A stretch of DNA of 64,000 nucleotides from Ischnura elegans (Eukaryota > Arthropoda > Insecta > Odonata > Coenagrionidae), in NCBI RefSeq assembly GCF_921293095.1, contig NC_060246.1, positions 132,122,198 through 132,186,197 on the forward strand, written 5' to 3'. The first letter of the stretch is position 1; the number at the start of each line of letters is the position of its first letter. Position numbers and translations under genes: made by a program. Below are positions 2,699 through 59,092 of the stretch, one piece after another. Under the pieces are notes generated by a model. The model saw only the letters and a list, made by a program, of their open reading frames with translations, was not told the origin of the DNA and did no database searches.

Positions 2699-5600
2699 TT
2701 AGGATTGTTGAAGTATGATGATGATCATCATTATAAGTATACAATAAGTAAACAATGATGATACTGATGGCTGAATTTCGCTAAAAATGTGTATTTATTT
2801 TCGCAGAAGTACTAGCGAAACATCACATATCTTTGGCGTGCCCCTAATTCAGATACCTATTCGTCGGGTAGTGCAAATTAACTGACAGTCTTGAATTTGA
2901 ATAGTTAAAATAAATTTTGATCCAACTTTCACCTAACCTCGACCAAAAAAATCTCATAGCTGGGAAAATTTACTTATGTCTACTCATGTATGGCGATATT
3001 GTGGTTGAGGTGAAGTTATTGTCACTCTATTTTGTAAAACCTATTTAAATTTAATTTTGTCATTGAGAAGGATAAAATTTATCATCAAAAGCTGATTTTG
3101 TAACCGACAACCTAAGTGTCTACTCTAGAAATTTGAGATAGAGTTTGGTCGCCACCTATAGTGTAGGGAATAATCGAAAAATACAGACGAACTTTTAAAA
3201 CTCTTGACGGAGCTAGTCCCAGGACTAAATGTTGTGCAATCAAGCTGATTTTTTTGTTCTACCAGCCTCATCCTACTGTTACGCCATCATGTGCAGCTAT
3301 CGAGTCTAACTATAGGAAATAAATTATTGGTCTTAATAGTACCTTACTTTGTTTATGTTGCGACGGAATGGCGAGATAGTTGCAGTTGAGGTAACAGTTC
3401 ACTCAGGCCAATCACTTTTCAATGTCTGTTAGTTCGGTCGTCTCTGAACCCTTCCCCCCACACGCCGCCGATGCTGCGTGGCGTTGGGAGGCAGACCGGT
3501 GAAGAAGATTCTCGCTCATCCTTCCATTGTTGCCGCTCCGCCGCGCCGGTATCCAGGGGCTCAACTCGGACAAAAGGGCACACGGCCGTATTAGGCTCAC
3601 GTGCATCTATTCCATGCAGATTATGTCGTCCGGCGCGGAATGGAAGCGAACCGGAGAAGCCCAAAAACGAGGCATTACTGACGCTCACCTTGGGCCGCAG
3701 TCATCCAAAAAGACATAGCTCTAATATTAGCTTTAGGTCTCTAAATAACGTAGTAACCCGTTAATCACTAAATAGTTTCAACATTACGTTTCATGAAGTT
3801 TACTTTCGTGCCATTTCTGAATGGTGTGTGACTCTTTTTCCTAAAAGCAATGATGACCACATTTTACTCCACTAATCTTTGAATTCAGCAATCAAATATT
3901 ACTTCTAGTCCAGAATATAGATTTCCCTATCGTATCGAAGGATTGCATGCCTATTCAATGCTAAGGTAATGAAATTATAACATAAAACAACAGAAATTTA
4001 AGTAATTTAATTAAAAATTTAATAACGCCTGTTATTAACATAATTTAAGAATATTTTAAGAATTATCTTATCCCAAGTTCTAAGTTATCTGGTTATATAT
4101 AAAGCTTTTTTTTTTATTTAAGCACTAGTTTTCTCCGCTGAAATCGCCAATGCCAACAGGTTATGGGCAGTGACGTCATGGCAAAATTAGCAGTGTCGTA
4201 AAACAACTTCCTTAAATTTTTTTATAAGTGAAATATTATTGCAGGTTTTTTTGTTACAATTTATTATTTTCATTTTATTACAGAATTGTTTGTTTTGGTT
4301 ACGCATGCATGTATTAGAAATTTTGAGGCAACAAAATTGATAATGGTGTTATTTTATTATTTTGACAACTCTGGTTATGGGCCAGTAATAAAGTCTTTAA
4401 AAGTTGTGATTTTTTTCAGAAAAAGGTAAAGCAAGAAAAAACACGATTTTGCTCCACTGAATCTGCCTACACAAGCATTGATGAATGTGATTCATGCACT
4501 ATATGGTGGCATTCCACACGGCATTTCTTTTTGGAAGTTCCCAGCGGTATTATTCCCAGAAACAGATATTTTGGTCATCGTGCTTATGTTCCAATTTCCT
4601 TACTGATCCCCAATTTATAGCAATGGAATGTGATTGCTCGCCATGATTCACTGACCTTAATTACTGACACCTTTTTAAGGGAAGATTGCTGGCTAGTTAC
4701 CAAGTATGTATGGTAAATTTAATTCAATGCTCCTTTTAATTTGGTTTCTTTGCTTAAGTATTTAACACACATCTGCAGGCTTTTATGGTATAATGTCTTT
4801 TCAATACGTTATGACTGATGTTCAATCATTATATTTCCATGCTATCTGTGGAGAATTATTCCATGGATTTGTTTCAATGCGTGGTTAAAAATTCTCCTTA
4901 CTTGTGTGCTCTTTTTGTGAATACGCTAAGTCATGAGTATTAGGTTATGGTAATCCAACGATTTCATCGATGGATTTTTCTCTTTAACAGGAAATCCACC
5001 ATAATCGTTGGCACATTAATTGCTGACACCAGGTTTCGCTATTTAGTGGGCCCTTTCCGCTTCTATAGCGGTGAGGTGTTTACCTTGTACCTCCCTTCCA
5101 GCCCTATCCCTATCCAAGAGGCGTTGTCGGGCTCCTATCGCGGCGGCACCCCTTTCCTTTTTCCTTCCCATTTCCACTCCCCTCCCCGGGTGATCGGGCG
5201 TATCAGTTGAATTACTGGGTCCCGGCCCCGGTGTGTTGTATCCTCGATGGGCTCCCCTGAGCCCTCACTTCTTATCGATTATGATATTATCAATCCGATC
5301 TAACGTATGTTTTAGCGGCTTTTTTCTCTGTGCAATCAAATTACAGCACGTGCATCGACTCAGAGGTTAGAATTCTAGCAAATAAAGCACTTAATGTGAT
5401 TTCTTTGTGTGGAAACAAAAATTCAGAAATATTACATTTTACTCTTCTTGAATTCCGCCGTATAAATTATGTACCCACTACATGTTGTCCCTAAGTCTCA
5501 GAATATGTATAATGCATGCCTTTCTCTTGGATAAACAAATATATGAAATGCAACCCTTTAAAGAAATGCCCTGCACATCATGCAAAATGATTGTATCTAA

Positions 5601-37874: not shown

Positions 37875-37879
37875 AAAAG

Positions 37880-38069
37880 TGTCAAAAACGAAAAAAAATC
37901 TTCTTTACGTCTTCGTTACAAAAACTATTTTATTCGTCTTCTATATCCCAAGGCCGCACAACAATCACTTTTATATTGGCAACGTAAATAAATAACAAAA
38001 CAAACATTCATCATCACCTTGAACGTAAAAATGCAAAACCCTACAAATATTAATTTTCACATTACAACA
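37880..38069 (-). repeat. 3' LTR of the copia element
   Basis: 190 bp, TG...CA ends on the coding strand. It carries TATAAAA at 37969-37975 and AATAAAA at 37928-37934 (both minus strand). Directly upstream on the coding strand lies the polypurine tract. Confidence 0.95.
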
Positions 38070-38078
38070 CCTCCCCTC
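38070..38078 (-). promoter_or_regulatory. Polypurine tract of the copia element
   Basis: The coding strand reads GAGGGGAGG immediately before the TG of the 3' LTR, the position and composition of the plus-strand primer of LTR elements. The 14-mer AACACCTCCCCTCG (plus strand) that spans this tract and the LTR edge occurs again at 38189-38202, at the end of the RNase H remnant. Confidence 0.8.
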
Positions 38079-38186
38079 GTTCGAGGATGATGGAAAGGAA
38101 CACAAAAAACATCATGCATAAACAATACGTTGGCAACGCCTATTCGAATTCCACCCAGGCGCTGCTTATTTTGTTAATAACGTATT

Positions 38187-38450
38187 CTAACACCTCCCCT
38201 CGGGATTGACAAAATAATAATTTGAAATATAAATCTCTAAGCACTCCTTAAGATTTAACATCTTACAAAATTCTTTTGTCTTAGTTCCTGACAGTGGCTT
38301 TGTCAACATGTCAGCGACATTATCTTTTGATCTGACTAACTGGAATGAAACCTCCCCTGTTTTTACCATCTCCCTGATACAATGATACTTCTTGATGTAT
38401 GACATATAATCATATTTAATAATACTTCTTGATATATGATATAATGACAC
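38187..38450 (-). pseudogene. C-terminal RNase H remnant of copia Pol
   Basis: The end of copia Pol is recognisable: 'YHCIREMVKTGEV' followed by 'DNVADMLTKPL' and 'FCKMLNL', the conserved tail of copia RNase H. Everything between the RT start (about 38452) and this tail is gone. At the join, a segment with ATCAAGAAGTAT occurs twice about 33 bases apart (imperfect tandem copies at about 38384-38445), which may mark how the deletion formed. The frame has no proper ATG (it opens with GTG) and is not expected to be translated alone. Confidence 0.85.
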
Positions 38451-38501
38451 TTCTCCGCATCTGGTCCACTCAGTGCCTCCTCTGCATCCTCCGGAATATT
38501 G

Positions 38502-39026
38502 CTATCTGGACCTTCTGCAGCAGGGACAGGTCTTGGGATTCCTCTGTCTCTGAGACCTATGTGGTAGACCACCTTCCGCTACTCCTTCATAGGCAGGCTC
38601 ATTTTCACAGGCGATGATTACCTCCCCTGGCCCCTGGATGGGTGTCACCTCCTCTGGCTCTCCACCTCTCGCCTCGAGCTCCTCCCAAGTCATCGTCTTC
38701 TCCTGCTTTCGTTTTTCCATCTCCAGTTGTTTCAAGGCGTAGTCTTTCTGTGATTGCTCTTCCTTCAGGCGTTTATTCAATACAGCCATCAATTCCATTA
38801 ATCTGAGTTTTTCAGCCTCAGCAGCCTGCATCATGGCTCTTAAAGCATACTCCGAGGACTTGAAATTTCCGGATCTCATTGCGGCAATTACCAGTGAGTT
38901 ATCATTTGAGCCTTGAGAAACATTCATGCTATGGAGGGCTTCTTGTAACTTTTCTACCATTATATTTTTCTTCTCCAGTGTATCTTCCAAATTATTGACT
39001 TTTGCCTGTTCTTTCATCAGCTGCAT
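38502..39026 (-). pseudogene. Continuation of the captured coiled coil and integrase-RT linker
   Basis: 174 codons that carry on the coiled coil without a change of character. They are separated from the previous frame by a single-base frame difference at a run of nine A (coding strand, near 39033-39041). Residues 1-35 and 62-112 are heptad-rich with many Glu, Lys, Leu and Met. The segment 45-60 is non-helical ('SLVIAAMRSGNFKSSEY'). From about residue 118 the composition turns Glu/Pro-rich and ends in 'LPHRSQRQR', like the Arg-rich linker before copia reverse transcriptase. A further frame change then leads to 'EEALSGPDAEK', a hallmark of the start of the copia RT domain, before sequence breaks off near 38452. 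The donor of the coiled coil is not recognised. Confidence 0.75.
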
Positions 39027-39028
39027 CG

Positions 39029-40741
39029 TTAAATTTTTTTTTCTTTCCTATGTTCTTCTGCCATTGCCTTCATTTCTAATTCTTTCTCCTTAATAGTACT
39101 ATCTTTGCTCTTCAAACACTCATTTAGGAATAGTATTAGCTGGTCACCATGCTCTTCCTTGGCCATTACTGTGGACAAACGACTTTTGAAGGCATCCATT
39201 TCTGCCTGGTCAGCCGCTGATATTGCCTTACTAACTTCTGCTTTCCTTTTCCAATCGCTGGCCTCTTTCTCTGCCTCCTGAAGCGATGTCTCCAGCTTTT
39301 CTACTTCAGCCAACCTCTTCTCCCGGTCCATTGGTTCAAGGTGTGTGTGCCTCTTTGCAAAAGAAACTCTGGAAGCCTTCTTCTGCTCGACTACGATTCT
39401 TTCCCCTTCATGGTGCAGGTGTCCCAAACGGTTGTGCCATGTTGTTGCTGCAATTTTACATGCTTTCATACCTTCATGCTCTTCAGCTTTTTTTCTTATT
39501 TGTGAAATAGAAGCACTCCCTTCAGTAGTGAGGTAATACAGGAAACCAACGCGATACCCCTGGAACAGAGTAGCTTCTTCGTCGCTAACAGTAGTCTTTC
39601 CGTCTCTCCTCACAATGGTCAAGCCCTTGTCTTCTAATTTCCCTTCCGAAATCAAATTGTCTTGGAGGCAAGGAATATATAACACATTAGTTAACTTTAT
39701 TTTCCATCCACCACATTCATTCGACATCTGGATGGTCACTGATCCTTGACCTTCTATTTTTAGTGATGTACCATCACCCACAGTTACTTCCCCAGAGAGG
39801 GGTTTGAAATCAACAAACAAATCTTTCCTAGGGCTCATGTGATCCGATGCTGCTGAATCCAGTATCCATATGCCGTTGTTTGCATGGTTTGGATTTCTTT
39901 GCATGCAGAGTACTTTATAGCCTCTTGATACTACTGATGCTGATGACTTCTTCTCTTCTTCATCTTGCTTCTGTATGGCAGGACAAAATCTTGCAGTATG
40001 CCCCTCCTTTCCACATGTGAAACAAATGTATCTCCTCCCAATAGGTTTCTTTGGAGCATTTTGTGATTTATTTTCACTGCTTACTTTAGGTATGTTTGGC
40101 TTCTTCTTTACCTTGAGAGCCTTGTTATCTTCTGTCTTCGCGTAATCCTCATTTTTCATTCTCTTCTCTTCTAGCAGGAGTTGGGACTTAACATATTTGG
40201 ATGTTATGTCTCCTTCATTTGTTCTGTAAATACTTCGTATAAACCCAGCATATTTTTCTCGAGGCAGACCCATGAGGTAGAACGCAGCCAGTGCTCTATC
40301 CGGGAGATTAATGCCACACTTAGTAATTTTACGGTTGTAATTCTGGATCTTGCTCATGTACTCCATCATGGAAAGGTCTTCCGTTTTTTCGGTATTTACC
40401 ATTTCCTTTAGGAACATTATCTCCTGGAACACGTCGTAAGTGGTGCACATGTCTCTTAATGCTTCCCACATATCCTTCGCTAGGTCCAGTCCCACGATAT
40501 CATCCAAAAATGAATCATCTACGTATTGTATGATAATGGCTCTGGCCTGTTGATTTTGTCGCTGACGGCGCCTAACCTCTTGTGGTGGGAGTTGGCTTTC
40601 GTCTTCCATTTCTATCTCGTTTCCATCACTGCCGAATGTTATGTATGGATGGAAACCTTTTACCGCTTCCCAACAATCTTTCTTCATTAAAAAAGCTTCA
40701 ATTCTTACAGCCCATACATCGTAATTATCGCTGTCGAGCAT
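39029..40741 (-). CDS. Copia Gag-protease fused to a coiled coil
   Basis: This frame of 570 residues starts like a copia Gag ('DNYDVWAVRIEAFL' near residue 5; UBN2/gag-2 type). The Gag helical region runs to about 200. A CCHC zinc knuckle has C240, C243, H248 and C253. The aspartic protease motif is D295-S-A-A-S in 'WILDSAASDHM'; DSA in place of DSG is common in this family. The Gag-pre-integrase block has 'TTWHNRLGH' with H436 and H441, but the cysteine pair that should follow is absent. From about residue 470 the protein becomes a charged, heptad-rich coiled coil to the stop, unlike any copia integrase. An ATG at 40772 lies upstream in another frame by one base and may be the original start. 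The frame closes at an A-run; the coiled coil continues one base out of frame in the next entry. Confidence 0.9.
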   Translation of the reverse strand: MLDSDNYDVWAVRIEAFLMKKDCWEAVKGFHPYITFGSDGNEIEMEDESQLPPQEVRRRQRQNQQARAIIIQYVDDSFLDDIVGLDLAKDMWEALRDMCTTYDVFQEIMFLKEMVNTEKTEDLSMMEYMSKIQNYNRKITKCGINLPDRALAAFYLMGLPREKYAGFIRSIYRTNEGDITSKYVKSQLLLEEKRMKNEDYAKTEDNKALKVKKKPNIPKVSSENKSQNAPKKPIGRRYICFTCGKEGHTARFCPAIQKQDEEEKKSSASVVSRGYKVLCMQRNPNHANNGIWILDSAASDHMSPRKDLFVDFKPLSGEVTVGDGTSLKIEGQGSVTIQMSNECGGWKIKLTNVLYIPCLQDNLISEGKLEDKGLTIVRRDGKTTVSDEEATLFQGYRVGFLYYLTTEGSASISQIRKKAEEHEGMKACKIAATTWHNRLGHLHHEGERIVVEQKKASRVSFAKRHTHLEPMDREKRLAEVEKLETSLQEAEKEASDWKRKAEVSKAISAADQAEMDAFKSRLSTVMAKEEHGDQLILFLNECLKSKDSTIKEKELEMKAMAEEHRKEKKI

Positions 40742-40906
40742 TGGGATACACGTCTTCTTTTTCTTCCGCCATTTTTGATGATTCCGAACTTACAAAGAAC
40801 AATTATGGGGTTCACTTCTTCTAACCTCAAACGTATTCGCCGTTCACACCATCAAAAGAAAAACTTCGCTTCGCATCAACACTTAGTGCAACTAAGTCTC
40901 ATAATC

Positions 40907-41096
40907 TGTCAAAAACGAAAAAAAATCTTCTTTACGTCTTCGTTACAAAAACTATTTTATTCGTCTTCTATATCCCAAGGCCGCACAACAATCACTTCTA
41001 TATTGGCAACGTAAATAAATAACAAAACAAACATTCATCATCACCTTGAACGTAAAAATGCAAAACCCTACAAATATTAATTTTCACATTACAACA
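40907..41096 (-). repeat. 5' LTR of the copia element
   Basis: On the coding strand the LTR starts TGTTGTAATG and ends TTTTTGACA, so it has the TG...CA ends of the family. It is identical to the 3' LTR except at 40998. That base turns the TATA-like box TATAAAAG (as in the 3' LTR) into TATAGAAG here, so the promoter copy that would drive the element is the altered one. An AATAAAA polyadenylation signal also lies in the LTR. The sequence just inside the LTR (40891-40906), where a primer-binding site is expected, could not be matched confidently to a tRNA. Confidence 0.95.
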
Positions 41097-41101
41097 AAAA
41101 G

Positions 41102-42520
41102 TTCCATCAAAGAGTTTTTTGTGCTGTGTATTCCCTCTCTTATTAGTCTGTTTAAAAGTACAGAGGAATATAGCAACACATCAAAATAACTTTGCTGAAA
41201 ATTTTTTTTGTAATATTTCATTTCCATCAATGGCAGAATGTCTAGAAAGAAGGTGGGAAGTTTTCGTTAAAACATGGGTAAAGATTAAGGCCTTCAACTT
41301 TTATTTATTCGTAATTGTAGACCATTTATTATAAGACAGAAGAGTTAGAAGTTTAAAATATCTTCATTTTAATCGTAGAAAAAGAACACGAATTTCTAAA
41401 GATATAATTCCACTCCGTCAATGTGAAGGATGTTTGGACAGCCTTTAGACCCATCATTCCTATGAAAAAGTGAATAGTGAAGCTTGATGAATTTTCCTAA
41501 GTAATGATGAACTTACCAGTTCGTAAATTTGTAAGTAATCGATCTGTATTAAATTTAAAAAGATAAGATGGTCTCAGTCTCAAGCAATTTTAAAGAAAAT
41601 CAACTTGTTTTTGTTTCACACCACCACCATTAAATGATGTGAAGATAATAAAATGATATCCTTGACTCAAAGGTTAAATAAAGGCCTTTTAATAACAATT
41701 ATACTCCATTAATTGTTACTAAAATTTTCATTAAAAGAGTGGGATACATTTGCACCAAGAAATGCTTTTAAAAACTTTGAGGTATACTCATTTAAGACGC
41801 AATATCTTTATAATTGAACCTGTAAAAGATAATTTTTTTTCAGCAAGTATTAACCGGTTTTGCATACTAAATTAACGAAGTCTTTTAAAGCCACCCCATT
41901 CTCATCTTGCTCTTGCGAGGGTGAAAAAAATGCTGTTTTTAAGTCTGTTTCCCCCTTCCTCTTTCTTCGGGAGATTTTAACTCTGAGCTGTGTTTTTATG
42001 CGTCATTTTGAGAATTTTGTCGGAGGTAAAAAACCGTGCTTGAGGCTTCAGATGTGTTTTTTTTAGCAACAGGTATTAATAGTTAAATAAATATAATGTT
42101 AACTTGGCCTATTTTTAATACTCTTTGCAACTTTCTTCTCCAAATTCCCCCACCCCTAAAAAATAGGTAAATTAACGACTCTACACGAGAGAAAAAGTTG
42201 TATTTTCTCTTGAAAATGACACGGCAGCGTTGAAAACGGTCAAGGTTGTACTAAACAAAGCTGCGTGGATTATGCAACGTTACCATTATATTTATGTATC
42301 GTTGATGGTGTTCCTCAAAGTTAACTCGAAAAAAATTAAAACGCATATATTCTACGTTAGCAATGTCATCTTGATGGAGAATCCATGCCTTGACTCTCAA
42401 TATATTTGGCGTTCCGAAAAGTACATAAGTATTCAAAAGCGAGGAATAATAATTTCAACGTATTAACATTTATTGATGCATGCGTAATATTTTAACAACT
42501 TATATTTATAAAATTTGACT
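41102..42520. other. Non-coding stretch, no gene recognised
   Basis: AT-rich sequence downstream of the copia insertion. No domain-bearing frame or element recognised. Confidence 0.5.
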
Positions 42521-43490
42521 CTACCACATCATCCTGCTCTCCTCCTTTCTAATCCAAGCTCAGTTGCTTCCAGGAAAACAGCACCATAGCAACCCCGTTT
42601 CAGTTTAATTCTTGCTTCCATCAGCTATTTTTGTGTTCTATTTTCATGCTATTGGCGCGATATTTATCAGTCAAGTGAGATTAATTCATTCAAGGGGCGC
42701 TGAATATTAAGTTTTCTTTTATCGTTGGGAAATAGTGGATCTTCATGAGAAGCACTCGAATCCCACGGCGGCTAAAGGGTATCCTAAGCCTTATAAAGTC
42801 TCCTCCATTCATCGAATCTCTCATTGCAGAGTATACTTCCTTTATATCCATCCATTCATGCTTCTCCGTACTTCTTTAGTTTAGTGTTTTAGGCGTCTTC
42901 TCGTGAGTCGTAAATAGTAAATCGGCAATTAAAAGCATTATATATCGAATTAGCCTTTTTTCACCATTTCAACATAAATATTAAATGCGTTTAACATTCC
43001 TATTCGTTTCACGTTCGTTGATTTTCCGAGGGAGATCCCGTAGAATCATTTCTCGTTGGGAAGCGTCGAATATCCCCAGGCGCTGAGATAACCCAACGTA
43101 AACTGTCTAGAACTAAATGAGTGTAAAGTTTCGGTCTCCTTTCTAGCCACAAAAAAATTATTGCGTAACTATTTTACCAACTCGTCTTCCTCTCCACTTT
43201 CTTATCCATGTTCTTATGCTCCTCGAAATACAGCAACCAGAGCAACCCCGTTTCAGTTTAATTCTTGCTTCCATCAGGTATTTTTGTGTTCTATTGTCAT
43301 GCCTATTGGTGCGATATATATCAGTCATGTGAGATTAATTCATTCAAGGGGTGCTTAATATTAAGTTTCCTTTTGACGTTGAAAAAGAGCGGATCTTCAT
43401 GAGAAGCACTCGAATCCCACGGCGGCTAAACGGTATCCTAAGCCGTACAAAGTCTCCTCCATTCTTCGAATCTCACATTGTGATTTGGAT
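42521..43490 (+). repeat. Local tandem repeat, modules A-B-A'
   Basis: Module A (42521 to about 42830) is repeated at about 43170-43483, offset 653 bases. Shared blocks include GCAACCCCGTTTCAGTTTAA, GAGATTAATTCATTCAAGGG and CTCGAATCCCACGGCGGCTA. Module B (about 42890-43165) lies between the copies and recurs downstream at 45440-45760. The sequence just before module A resembles the end of module B, so the unit is probably an A-B tandem of about 650 bp. No conserved coding frame was seen in either module, and the family is not recognised. Confidence 0.75.
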
Positions 43491-49425: not shown

Positions 49426-50710
49426 AAGAGAGGTTATATTTTGAGTGGTTTGATTTTGAGTGGGTACACTCATGACTGTGTTCCTCAAATATTTAGGGGG
49501 GATTTGAACACAACGATCCTATCCGGTGGCTAAGGCCTTGAAGTTGGAAATTAGCGCAGACATAAAGGACATTTTGCTGTGGGGTAAATTTCTAACGATT
49601 TGTATTGAATTCAGAGAGGAATAAATATGTAATAATTCTCAGGTTAGATAACTGAATGACTTAATCAGTTTTCTCACGGTTCCATTCGGTGGCACAATTA
49701 GTGGTGAAATTTAAGTGATGAAACTTCGTTACCGTCACTCGAGGAATCATTTCAGTGACACAGATGTGCATAATATTCCGCTCTATATTGACACTGAAGA
49801 AGGGTACAGGCGCTACTGTCTAATGAATCTTGGCCAATAGGGCCTTAGGTCATTTCATTATGCAACTTTCAATTGCCAGCGGCAGCAAAGAGCATTTTTT
49901 GCAAGGCACAGAACCAATGTGGATTCCTTGAATTCTTGCTTATGAATTCATTCTCATTAAATAGTGCAGCTCATCACATTTGCCGATCAAACGGGCGGCT
50001 ACCGTCGAAGAAGCAAACTAGTCGTGGCTTACGCTCTCTGAAAGATGGGGCAGTCAATTCTTTTTCCTTTTTTCATTTTAGTTATCATCAACAGCATTCA
50101 CATTACTCATGGAGGTACAATTTAATTAATTTTATCATTATGTGTGTGCATTTATCTATTCCCAAGTTGTTTTATATCTATTTATTTGCTATTCCATCAG
50201 GTCAATGAACTTTGCGTGTATTTAACATAAGTCACACGTTTAAAGACATCGGGAGTGCGTGTAAGAATGATGTTTGTTGAGTTCATAAGTCGGTTGCTTT
50301 GAAATAATTTAGCTGGATATGTTTTTATCTTCACGAGAGATGCTTTTCTTTGTTTGTGCTCTGGATATTTGGATATTTCGGGCAGCAAAGTGCTTCCCGT
50401 ATCAATATTAATTTATCGAAAACATTTCTGCCTCCATGACCAGTTCATGTGCCATTTGCGCGTTGCAACTAAATAATTCTGAAAACGAAGTTCTTAATCA
50501 TTACTTTACTTGTAAAATCAATGATGAAATAATTCATTATTAATAGATGTTTCACAGCTGAAGATGGTATAATGGCAATGCGAAAATGCTATATAGTTAA
50601 AAATGTTTTCCACTTAGTCGCTTTATACTGATGATGTGCCATTTAAAAATTTAATGTTTGGGAATCTGATTAATAGTTTCATTCCTTTTGATCTTTTTTT
50701 GCCATTGCAG
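49426..50710. other. Probable intron or 5' region of the repeat-protein gene
   Basis: No exon could be supported. The stretch ends in a T-rich tract and a strong acceptor (TTGCCATTGCAG, ending at 50710). Since the exon that follows opens with two bases of a split codon and has no signal peptide, at least one 5' exon must lie here or further upstream. Confidence 0.5.
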
Positions 50711-51451
50711 CACCGGCAGCCGCCCTTTACCATCAGGAATACCAGGCCGGTGCTTCTGAAAGACAGAGCGGCTCGTACTACTTTCCCCAAGCGAACACGT
50801 ACCAGCCTCCATCAGGCACCTACTACCACGGAGCCCAGTCGCGCCCTTATGGACAGACCCTGCAGCACACCACTTCATCGACGGGACACTCCAGCTATCA
50901 GGGCCGCCCGTACCCTTCAGCTAACCCGCTAGCACACAGTTCGGCGCACTCCCCGTATTACTCTTCTTCCAAGCCCGAGTCCCACGATTCGGCTCACTCG
51001 CAGTCATTCCCTCATGCTAACTCACAGTATCACGGGTCGGAAAATTCGCGCCCCTACTCTCCTTCAGCCAACTCGGAGTCCCACACCTCAGCCAACTCGC
51101 GACCGTACTCGCCTTCCACCGCCAACTCCAAATCTCACACTTCCACCAACTCGCAGTCATATTCGCCCTCCTCTAGTAGCTCCCAATCCCATGCATCCAC
51201 CGACTCGCAGTCGTACTCGTCGTCTTCTGGTAACTCCCAGACTCACGCTTCTGCTAGCTCTCCGTCGTACTCTTCCGGTTACCCGCACGGCGATTCCGGC
51301 CACCAGCAGTCGCACTCGGAGTCTCCGGGATTCTCGCAAGCCTCCACTCAAGACAAGGACTGCGTCGTCGCGTGCAGCGACATTTGCGGCGGTGAGGCCC
51401 TCTGGAGCAGCGAAAAAGGAACTTGCGAATGCGCGATTCCACCGGAAAAAG
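50711..51451 (+). CDS. Exon of a Ser/Tyr/His-rich repeat protein with a cysteine cluster
   Basis: A 741-base open stretch between a strong acceptor (TTGCCATTGCAG) and a consensus donor (AAAAG|GTGAGC). It enters with a two-base partial codon (phase 1) and leaves in phase 1, encoding about 247 residues. The N-terminal part is Tyr/Gln/His/Gly-rich ('SGTYYHGAQSRPYGQ'). The middle has at least four degenerate repeats of 17-18 residues built on 'ANSESHTSANSRPYSPS'-like units. The C-terminal 35 residues switch to a cysteine cluster with spacing C-x3-C-x3-C-x12-C-x-C. Low-complexity, Ser/Tyr-rich repeats with a terminal cysteine module suggest a secreted structural or adhesive protein, but there is no known family I can name. 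The codon pattern is GC-rich at third positions compared with the AT-rich surroundings, supporting real coding. The ATG-opened 226-codon frame from 51014 is a shadow in another frame. Confidence 0.75.
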
Positions 51452-53075
51452 GTGAGCTTTTCTTATCCTCGCTGTGCCCTGCGGCCAAGCACTCAATTGA
51501 TATCCAATTGGTCATCTAACTCCGGCTTGGTAGTTTTGTCAAAAAAATTTTATTCGCGCCATTTTCGTTTGTTAGTATGCATCCATGCTGTTTCATATAC
51601 CGCGAGAAGAAAGATAAAACATATGGCTGCAAACATAGGCGTTTTGTCTTACGGCACAACAGTATCCATCAGTGATTTTATTTCTTGTGAGTAAAATAAG
51701 GTAATGTAGTCACCGTATGGGATGCAGGAACATATGTTTCGCGTGTCATCTTGAGTGTTTCGTCAGTATTGGTTAAGATACCCGATATAGGGGTTCGTAT
51801 AATATTTTCTATATCTATATATTGTAAATGCTGTGTATCATAGTGGCTTCATACAATGATAGTGCCAAACGCTGCTACTTTTTTAGTATCATGCTTTCTT
51901 TCGAGGCTGTTTGCCCGCATTACACGACGTTATTGAAAAAGATTAGCGATAGGTCACATTAACGGGAAGTGAATGTAATGATTGTGAATAGAGGGTTTGC
52001 ATAACGTAAATTTTTTTCCCCGTCTAAGTAAGTGTATGATGAAAGGCTCCATTATGCAGCGAAATACGGCTTTAGTGTCACCAACTACGACTAGAAATAC
52101 AGTAAATTTAAGGTATCCCCATTTTACATATCATTGGAGTTCATTGCGGAATGCACTCGTAGAAGTATCTCCGTCACAGATAGACTTCCTAAACTGAGGC
52201 TAATCTTTTCATGATTCAAATTCTCATTTAAAAGAATGTATTTTTTAAGATTCTTTTCAATAGCATTATATTCTGCTTGGTTCAGTTACCTTCAAAATTT
52301 TCCAACATTTTTTCGACTCGAAGTTTTTAGCGAAATCCGATTAAGTTCCGGTCCTCATGAGTATACCCTACTTGAGCAGCCCTACTCAACCTCCTAAATT
52401 CCTCGAGCCTGATTTAATTGCTCTTTTTGAATCTCATTCGGTTGACCTATCCTCATTTTATGATTTTATCGATAATTTTATGCTTCAATATGTTAACATT
52501 AATTTCCTCAGAAATGGGACAGAAACGCTTATTCATTAATTTTATTTTGAATTTGCTGTATTCATTTCCATCGAAAAAATATATCTGTTTATGATACTAA
52601 ATGTTTTTGGCTAACCATTTAATTTTACACGAGAAACTGCCTGAAGCATACATTCGTATTTAATATTATTCAATATTTAAAAAATTCTATTTTTTTAGTA
52701 TACCTAAGTAATATTTAGTGTTTGTTTAATTTCATGCAGGCAATATTTTCCCTATAGCTCTTTTGACAAAATAGCTCGGCACTGAATCCATATTGATACG
52801 AATATTATGAACATTCAAAAGTGTAACAGTGGAAATCCAAGGTGTAAATTTGGACAAAGTTGATCGACGCGTGACTTTCTCTGAGCCAAATCTTTTGCAG
52901 TAGGCATTATCAAGAGAGGACTTCCAAGTATTTCCAAAGGGCACCCACTCACTTCAATTTAAGCCGTGTTTACAAGCCACAATGTATATTTTTAAAAGCT
53001 TTAGGCTCAAAGAAACTGTTCTCCCTCTCATTATCTTACAACTACGTCACTAATTGATTCTTTTCCTCTCAATAG

Positions 53076-57344: not shown

Positions 57345-58529
57345 GTAAAGTTATCATTAACTTTCCATCAATTTTTGGCGTGAATCCTGGAAATTTTCAT
57401 TTGAAAGTGATATGTGGCAATTTATCCCGCCTAGTATTCAATTTTGCTTTGACCTACCTCTTTCTTAATAATTTGTATTTTTTTATTCTGAGAGCTAATT
57501 ATAAATCAGATAAAGTTGTTAACTCAGCCATTCTTAGCTTGGTGGGTCTAGTAATGAGCTCTCACGGTGATTTTCCATTTTTAGAATAGACTTAGATTAC
57601 CCAGCAGTTCACATGCACGAAGTAACACGAAAACAAAACGATAAATTTTACCAGGGAACATTACCTGAGTCCCTGAGGTAATAGTTTTAGTCGCAGAGAC
57701 AAGGGATTCTGATTCTTGATCAGACCAGGGGGATGATTCATTGACATGAGATTTTTGTACTTATCAAAATTACACTTAATGTACTTAATTACATTTTTAT
57801 AACTTCTTTTTCGCAATGTTTTCTGACACTATCCCTCTTAGCCATTTCCGATGACCATTTTTGAGGATTTTTCTACATTCTATGTGTATCTACTAAGTTA
57901 TAAACGCGTCTATAGGCGCCTCACCTGAAGAAATGGTAGATAGAAAATCATATGAAGGAAGGTAAATTTATCTGCTCGAAGGGCATATGTGTATCTAGCG
58001 ATTGTTGATTTTTTTTCTCTGCTGATGAACGAACGGCCTGCTCGAACGACATTGTCAAATTTAGAGTGATGGGTATACCGGTAGTGTGTTCATTGATCTG
58101 TGAGCACTCCCACATCAGGTGCATGATGCACTTATAGATTTGGCTTCTAGACACGGCTTATCGAGATGCTTTTCCCTTAGTATGCTTGCCAAAACTGTGC
58201 TAAATGGAACACATTTTGTAGCCCTTCAATTATTGATAGAACATTCTAACTATTTTCCAAATTGATTATGTTCGTACAGTTCTATAGTTTGGGTACTTAT
58301 CATAGTATTTACACGCTACATTGATACCATAGCTCTAATGAAGAAATAAGAATGTACGCTTTGCATTGCTTGAAAACTTTGACGGCGATTTTCAAGAAGT
58401 ATATTTTTTCTCTCGTGTTTTAATCGTGAACCATTTCTCTTCAAGTCCTAAGCGGGTCATTCGTCATGGTAACTCTACCAGCTTTGCCCAGATTCCATTA
58501 AGAGAGAGGTATGAATTCTATTTCGACAG
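57345..58529. other. Probable intron
   Basis: AT-rich non-coding DNA. A small inverted repeat, ATTACCTGAGTCCCTGAGGTAAT, lies at about 57661-57683. The stretch ends at the acceptor TTCTATTTCGACAG. Confidence 0.45.
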
Positions 58530-59092
58530 TTGAACTCTTGAATCGGCGACCGGCACTGCGTTGGCCAGCCATCAGTCGAACTTCCACATCGATGAACGGC
58601 AAACAACCATCGCTTCTAATACCTCCACCCGGACAAGGATCACCAATGCTGCGGCAAGAAAACATTAACAATGGAACCAGCCCAGGAGGAGGCTCCCAAG
58701 ATGACGATTCCGACGACTCTGATTCCGACGATTCGGATTCCGATGACTCTGATTCCGATTCTGATTCCGACGACTCTGATTCTGATTCCGACGACTCTGA
58801 TTCTGATTCCGACGAGTCTGATTCCGATGATTCTGATTCCGACGAGTCTGATTCGGACGATTCCGATTCCGAAGATTCAGATTCCGACGATTCTGATGAA
58901 GACAGTGATGATGATTCAGACGATAATGAAACGCAGAGCAACACCAGTGAATCCGAAGATGACAGCGATGATTCTGAGGACGACAGTGATTCCCAGGACA
59001 ACTCTGATGATTCCGACGAAGATGATGATGATTCTGATAACGACAATGATGATGATACTGACGGCGAGGAGGATAACAACAATGATGATTAA
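58530..59092 (+). CDS. Final exon encoding an acidic Asp-Ser repeat tail
   Basis: The acceptor TATTTCGACAG ends at 58529; entered in phase 1 (as left by the 55778, 57321 and long 53076 exons) the frame is open to the TAA at the end. A second possible acceptor at 58502 keeps the same frame. An in-frame TAA at 58499-58501 shows the exon cannot start earlier. The first 55 residues are mixed, Arg/Pro-rich; the following 125 residues are almost only Asp and Ser with some Glu and Asn (DSD, DSDSDD). Such tails are known in dentin- and mollusc-matrix-type phosphoproteins and bind calcium when phosphorylated on serines; SDD and SDE are CK2/Fam20-type contexts. It could alternatively be a nuclear acidic domain if no signal peptide exists upstream. 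It may also be a separate single-exon gene starting at the ATG at 58511 (193 codons). The opposite strand is also open but is a Ser/Glu shadow of the same repeat. Confidence 0.7.

Follow-up and report, generated by a model that had tools for sequence, protein, structure and literature searches.

A 64,000-nucleotide stretch of the Ischnura elegans genome (C1:132122198-132186197, hereafter the window) contains a copia element in which five exons of a host coiled-coil gene, joined in the order of the spliced mRNA, occupy the place of the integrase. The sequences next to the host segment belong to one copia family (family B), and the LTRs, leader, Gag, and protease belong to another (family A). 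The element is best explained, with a probability of about 0.9, as a member of a non-autonomous copia family that is young, has amplified, and bears a fragment transduced from a host gene. The I. elegans assembly that was searched comprises 1,722,721,009 bases in 110 contigs, and the genomic counts given below are lower bounds, since only the best candidates were scored.

The chimeric element in the window

The element spans positions 37880-41096 on the minus strand. It is bounded by two 190-bp LTRs (37880-38069 and 40907-41096) with 1 mismatch in 190, and is flanked by a 5-bp target duplication, AAAAG (CTTTT on the element strand), confirming the intact LTR pair described in an earlier interpretation of these letters (the sequence-only reading). 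The sequence following the 5′ LTR resembles a half-tRNA copia primer site. One minus-strand frame (39029-40789) encodes Gag, a CCHC knuckle, and Pol_BBD (Pfam: Retrotran_gag_2, E = 4.1e-21; zf-CCHC, 3.1e-4; Pol_BBD, 8.8e-25), the last of which presumably represents the copia protease region; it also matches part of gag_pre-integrase, His pair included (E = 0.011, under the Pfam cut-off). The single-frame order of Gag, knuckle, protease, and His pair was thus as originally read, with a sub-threshold match for the His-pair domain.

The sequence-only reading further proposed that these domains run directly into about 270 codons of coiled coil. The frame does continue into the coiled-coil segment, but the host part is confined to 38712-39329, about 206 codons; the proposed interval, 38452-39360, therefore also includes copia sequence at both ends. 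In the window copy, the coiled coil is broken by a 1-nt deletion near 39040, which divides it between frames 39029-40789 and 38502-39047. Comparison with the host gene showed 1 gap column at this frame break, and none in 8/8 family A sister copies examined. The linker and RT-start hallmark that had been noted downstream are present (38448-38707), but the RT start lies in another frame, and a deletion has removed the RT as far as the RNase H end (38117-38390). In the Pfam search, the window frames matched neither an integrase core nor an RT. Of the Ty1/copia characters, the element retains Gag, CCHC, and protease, together with the LTR pair and short target duplication, and lacks an integrase upstream of RT/RNase H. 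Because both the integrase core and the RT are missing, and both are present in the autonomous relative L037, the window element is a non-autonomous copia derivative, as had been suggested. Its parts are listed below in window coordinates.

37875-37879, no strand: target site duplication AAAAG, left
37880-38069, minus: 3′ LTR of the family A type (1 mismatch with the 5′ LTR over 190 bp)
38070-38121, minus: family A 3′ end, with a purine-rich tract directly before the LTR (putative PPT)
38117-38390, minus: family B 3′ tail and RNase H end, RT deleted upstream (89% to L016)
38448-38707, minus: family B linker and RT start (EALSGPDAEK), RT start out of the main frame (89% to L016, 90% to L009)
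38712-39329, minus: captured host segment, five spliced exons of the gene at C12:23863610-23867754 (90.0-95.2% per exon, GT/AG at four introns)
39029-39047, minus: overlap of the two frames, i.e., the frame break, a 1-nt deletion within the captured segment (gap column against the host)
39330-39353, minus: junction patch AKRHTHLEPM, resembling family B protease and adjoining the host segment (read by eye)
39354-39412, minus: family B patches, gag HEGERIVVEQKKAS at 39372-39412 and pre-integrase KKASRVSF at 39354-39382
39404-41096, minus: family A block with 5′ LTR, leader, Gag, CCHC, protease, and start of the pre-integrase domain (97.6% to L037)
40907-41096, minus: 5′ LTR (paired with the 3′ LTR)
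41097-41101, no strand: target site duplication AAAAG, right

Rfam gave no hit in the window, and phage records searched by megablast gave none. Outside the element, a 275-aa plus-strand open frame at 50692-51519, rich in Ser, Tyr, His, and Pro and with a Cys-containing end, looks like a structural or secreted repetitive protein. At 58502-59092, a low-complexity plus-strand frame of 196 aa is dominated by Asp-Ser repeats, and a Ser-Glu-rich frame lies on the opposite strand. Regions 42520-42760 and 43180-43430 share similar phrases, e.g., TTTCAGTTTAATTCTTGCTTCCATCAG (by eye), as if from a diverged duplication of a few hundred bases.

Source gene and spread of the captured segment

The DNA of the segment matches the C12 locus in five pieces, in the same order and on one strand, with 90.0-95.2% identity. 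A GT donor and an AG acceptor are found at all four gaps, and once joined, the exons form an uninterrupted frame of 206 codons. Since the five exons are joined without these introns, the segment passed through a spliced RNA, and host-derived sequence from a spliced RNA therefore lies within the LTRs, as in a gene-transducing element. The proposal that host coding sequence had been captured is thereby supported. The right edge of the segment falls inside the open stretch of the last exon, and the left edge lies at an exon start or a few bases inside it. Further candidate coiled-coil exons are located upstream and downstream; with these included, the source gene looks CCDC13-like. The name is a lead, since the coiled coil, in the window as in the C12 source, gave no Pfam match over the cut-off (best sub-threshold row LRRFIP, E = 0.036) and no PDB match. 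In Drosophila, the central pair of the sperm flagellum is described as depending on Ccdc13 (PMC12147715).

The heptad-rich character attributed to the segment found partial backing. The heptad scores of its two halves were equalled by 9/300 and 44/300 shuffles (70/300 for a Gag control), and the 3.5-residue periodicity was not significant in either half (408/2000 and 332/2000 shuffles reached the value). Composition, heptad score, and source gene together make the coiled-coil assignment moderately supported.

A protein search of the genome returned at least 73 matches, with at least 44 places matching 157 or more of 181 residues (hand count); at least 28 of the 44 are 97% or more identical across a minimum of 180 residues. 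Of these 28 close copies, 18 lie in an open frame that is at least 757 aa long; the window copy is among the 28 and outside the 18. All of the 26 further copies examined matched the joined host exons as one segment covering bases 1-619 (1-617 in one copy), with 90.6-94.3% identity. The LTR pairs were identical in five of eight copies examined, including L008; of the remaining three, one pair had 5 mismatches and two had 1 each, accompanied in one of them by four gap columns. Seven of the eight were flanked by 5-bp target duplications; the 5′ LTR of L008 is preceded by element sequence in a tandem-like arrangement. The chimera thus transposes as a unit, with the same host segment in every further copy, and the family spread by LTR-type integration, recently in part, as the identical LTRs indicate. 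The suggestion that the element moved recently in its present form, or just before, agrees with the LTRs; this form is an amplified family rather than a single event.

Family mosaic and further captures

Compared with other loci of the genome, the window element is a mosaic in the order A - B - host - B - A. Positions 41096-39404 are 97.6% identical to L037, an autonomous family A element with a 1250-aa frame containing gag, rve (over the cut-off), and RVT_2 domains, an integrase core in the position of the coiled coil, and LTRs with 2 mismatches in 184. The family B loci L009 and L016 likewise have integrase sequence in this position (in L016, SH3_retrovirus is clear and rve is under the cut-off). 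Among the best 55 of 3832 candidates scored, at least 16 family A places span protease, integrase, and RT start, eight of the 16 without a stop in the match, and are candidate autonomous partners for movement in trans; among the matches listed, family B was represented by three places that have integrase and closely match L009.

At the junctions, as displayed for the window copy and 15 others (L020 and L049 gave no line, and L002-L008 were not included), a family B pre-integrase piece precedes the join between family B protease-like and host sequence. The simplest junction is that of L017, in which family B protease sequence lies directly on host sequence; the junction similarities are short ones, identified by eye. 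The C12 gene was considered as the origin of the patch at 39330-39353, and no source was found within that gene region; family B protease sequence explains the patch better. In a tree of 28 rows, in which the bootstrap was not settled, nine family A copies formed one group (100/98), five copies formed another (100/97), and L017 adjoined the host. Three kinds of gag accompany the segment: that of family A, that of a subfamily about 84% identical, and that of family B. The 84% gag was found at at least five places, four of which carry the segment; the fifth (C6:52802360), with five stops, is absent from the coiled-coil list. Family B gag accompanies the segment at at least three places, at 38% in the gag search; the L042 place is 90% identical to L009, and L042, with family B gag, groups with the four 84% copies in the tree.

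The shared host extent in 26/26 copies fits a single capture for all. Since the flanks of the host segment come from family B, the host gene was most likely captured in family B and passed to A-type elements by recombination. The sequence-only reading had the element replace its own integrase; the core is indeed gone, but the segment was most likely received from family B. The joins might have arisen when reverse transcriptase switched among RNAs that shared a particle; the male germ line, in which such mRNAs are expressed, is a possible setting. Capture in family B would have been followed by restoration of the upstream part through recombination within that family, and then by the transfer to A-type elements. 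The copies appear to keep the cis signals of family A, and many could make Gag and protease. Judged from the shared ends alone, they would move in trans, with integrase, RT, and RNase H supplied by intact family A elements.

Three more captures were found: DRC4/GAS8 in family B, DRC4 in family C, and another spliced coiled-coil gene in family C. The second case surfaced through family B linker that the coiled-coil query included; a DRC4 search led to the third, and a gag search of the family first found through DRC4 led to the fourth. The family B loci with DRC4/GAS8 are L010, L011, L012, L013, and L015. The L010 piece matched solved DRC4 chains (phmmer, 1.4e-35 to 8j07_0, residues 19-118), and the captured sequence corresponds to two host exons on C3 (98.2 and 95.9% identity) joined across a GT/AG intron. 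The 10-bp GGGGAAGAAG at its left join is found in the host as well as in the majority of the displayed B-type copies, and nearly so in L016. L010, L012, L013, and L015 have 5-bp duplications (by eye), and the LTRs of L015 are identical over 175 bp. At 4408-4648, L010 has two tandem copies of its linker segment (EELKARGGESEEVTPIQGPGEV followed by EELEARGGESEEVTPIQGPGEV). For Drosophila Gas8, the published listing gives expression in testis and chordotonal neurons, and 5/5 infertile upon knock-down (PMC6367277).

The family C loci with a longer DRC4 piece, L059 and L060, are old and broken; in L059, copia gag, CCHC, and RVT_2 matches surround the piece. Its different extent and lower identity (84-91%) point to a separate capture. 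The other family C case, L065, has a 620-aa frame composed of gag, CCHC, and coiled coil, in which no protease or integrase match was found. Its coil was detected at at least seven near-full places, 4/7 in frames of 620-649 aa, and derives from four separate exons spread over 30 kb on C12, in a gene at 21508545-21538250 (95.1, 87.4, 97.8, and 90.8% identity; GT/AG ends at three introns). For this source gene no PDB match was obtained, and Pfam was clear only for the gag part. In family C, too, element sequence was probably lost. At the left edge, L059 and L065 align to within about 35 nt of the coil start, and the slots of the two family B captures likewise almost coincide. C14 holds a pair of DRC4-like matches separated by 7 kb (18742548-18742730 and 18749984-18750214), with one stop each, which are either a decayed second gene copy or another capture. 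The four captures involve three source genes, all coiled-coil-like, and lie in or near the integrase place; a preference cannot be proved from three genes.

Origin and role of the segment

Is the captured coiled coil of use to the element? Coiled coils might be useful, e.g., in multimerisation of Gag particles or in binding to germ-line microtubules, and a module recruited for such a role would explain the repeated uptake of different coiled coils at the same place. The four captures span two copia families, and the third source gene was met by a gag search rather than a coil search. The DRC4 source protein is axonemal, and CCDC13, the putative product of the C12 source, presumably is as well. 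Frames are open in 18/28 young copies and 4/7 near-full family C copies, but recent copies would keep open frames anyway, and testis expression of many such genes could explain the bias in source genes without selection. The small number of source genes also does not suffice to prove a preference.

Variants within the segment among 27 copies were polarised by the host sequence and compared with the expectation for no selection. Singletons (1/27 copies) comprised 87 nonsynonymous, 32 synonymous, and 4 stop changes, against 86.9, 30.5, and 5.6 expected, and shared variants comprised 33, 14, and 1, against 33.9, 11.9, and 2.2. Variants present in at least 25 copies, a class that mixes the host branch with the element stem, numbered 16 nonsynonymous and 11 synonymous (18.3 and 7.8 expected). 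The nine family A copies gave a pooled pN/pS of 0.12, on only some one change per pair; the values were 0.70 for 13 other copies, 0.55 for a group of five, L051 (probably with family B gag) included, and 0.61 for all 27. Overall, no selection on the captured segment was found in the 27 copies, and it looks to evolve nearly neutrally on the whole. The low value in family A favors a recruited module, but rests on very few changes, and the near-neutral values oppose it; we consider recruitment rather unlikely. Near-neutral evolution instead favors a passenger mobilised in trans by family A, and the coiled coil itself would be mostly such a passenger.

Much less probable is that a processed pseudogene made by a LINE landed in a copia element and that the fused element later spread. 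An intronless, mRNA-derived segment is what such an event would leave, but the segment comes from within the mRNA and is truncated on either side, neither poly-A nor a repeated flank was seen at the displayed edges (by eye), the integrase is missing rather than interrupted, and similar joins recur in three more cases. The reverse direction, in which the coiled coil would be native to some lineage of copia and an element would have supplied the exons of the C12 gene, is very nearly excluded: sequence identity in itself has no direction, but the C12 locus has GT/AG introns and more coiled-coil exon candidates on both sides, and the autonomous elements of families A (L037) and B (L009/L016) have integrase sequence at this place, which also shows that the coiled coil is no normal part of these autonomous copia families. 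An assembly chimera, the other outcome that the sequence-only reading had named as refuting, or a single aberrant copy is refuted by copy number within this assembly (at least 44 places on many contigs, clean 5-bp duplications in 7/8, the same host segment in 26/26 further copies) and by the host gene itself; the assembly is described as built from long reads (PMC9975421).

The preferred reading, a transduced host fragment in an amplified non-autonomous family, has partial precedents in the published accounts. LTR elements are already known to capture spliced host mRNA (PMC5408686, PMC13317346). Maize Bs1 is an LTR element with pieces of three host genes and a transcribed and translated chimeric gene (PMC5408686, PMC13317346); it is a plant case with enzyme genes, whereas coiled-coil genes were taken up here by several animal copia families, one module being amplified and shared between families. 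In metazoans, LTR-mediated retroposition (Tan et al. 2016) similarly involves mRNA-LTR joins and template switching at short similarities, insects included, but its products are presented as retrocopies rather than a multi-copy family that keeps Gag/protease frames and still moves the host piece (PMC5408686). Bdelloid rotifer LTR retrotransposons have acquired ORFs across different element types, one type of ORF being regarded as exchanged between retroelements and not as taken from the host (PMC5408684); here, three pieces align exon for exon with genes in the same genome. The BARE-2/Wis-2 and Veju TRIM recombinants are new LTR families formed via template switching, for which that account does not describe host coding sequence (PMC13317346). 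The literature matches listed included no damselfly case of a copia-borne captured host gene. Unusual in the present case are the recurrence, the occurrence of a single module across several families, and an amplification in which the Gag and protease frames are retained. Host-gene capture by LTR elements is, to our knowledge, known mostly from plants, and in animals as retrocopies.

The source genes, the autonomous partners, an apparent early junction, and later recombinants are all found in one genome, which makes the steps of capture and hand-over readable. Many copies are 91-94% identical to the host gene over 619 bp, which could, as a conjecture, matter for small-RNA silencing of that gene. 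The recurrence of coiled coils also makes it testable whether they reflect mutation and supply, or use by the element. It is doubtful, though conceivable, that copia elements in this genome repeatedly trade their integrase region for host coiled coils, partly of the sperm axoneme, that aid non-autonomous elements. If so, a coiled coil behind Gag would aid multimerisation or the tethering of particles to microtubules during sperm formation, and the captures would represent convergent recruitment of one protein architecture as a cassette exchangeable between element families.
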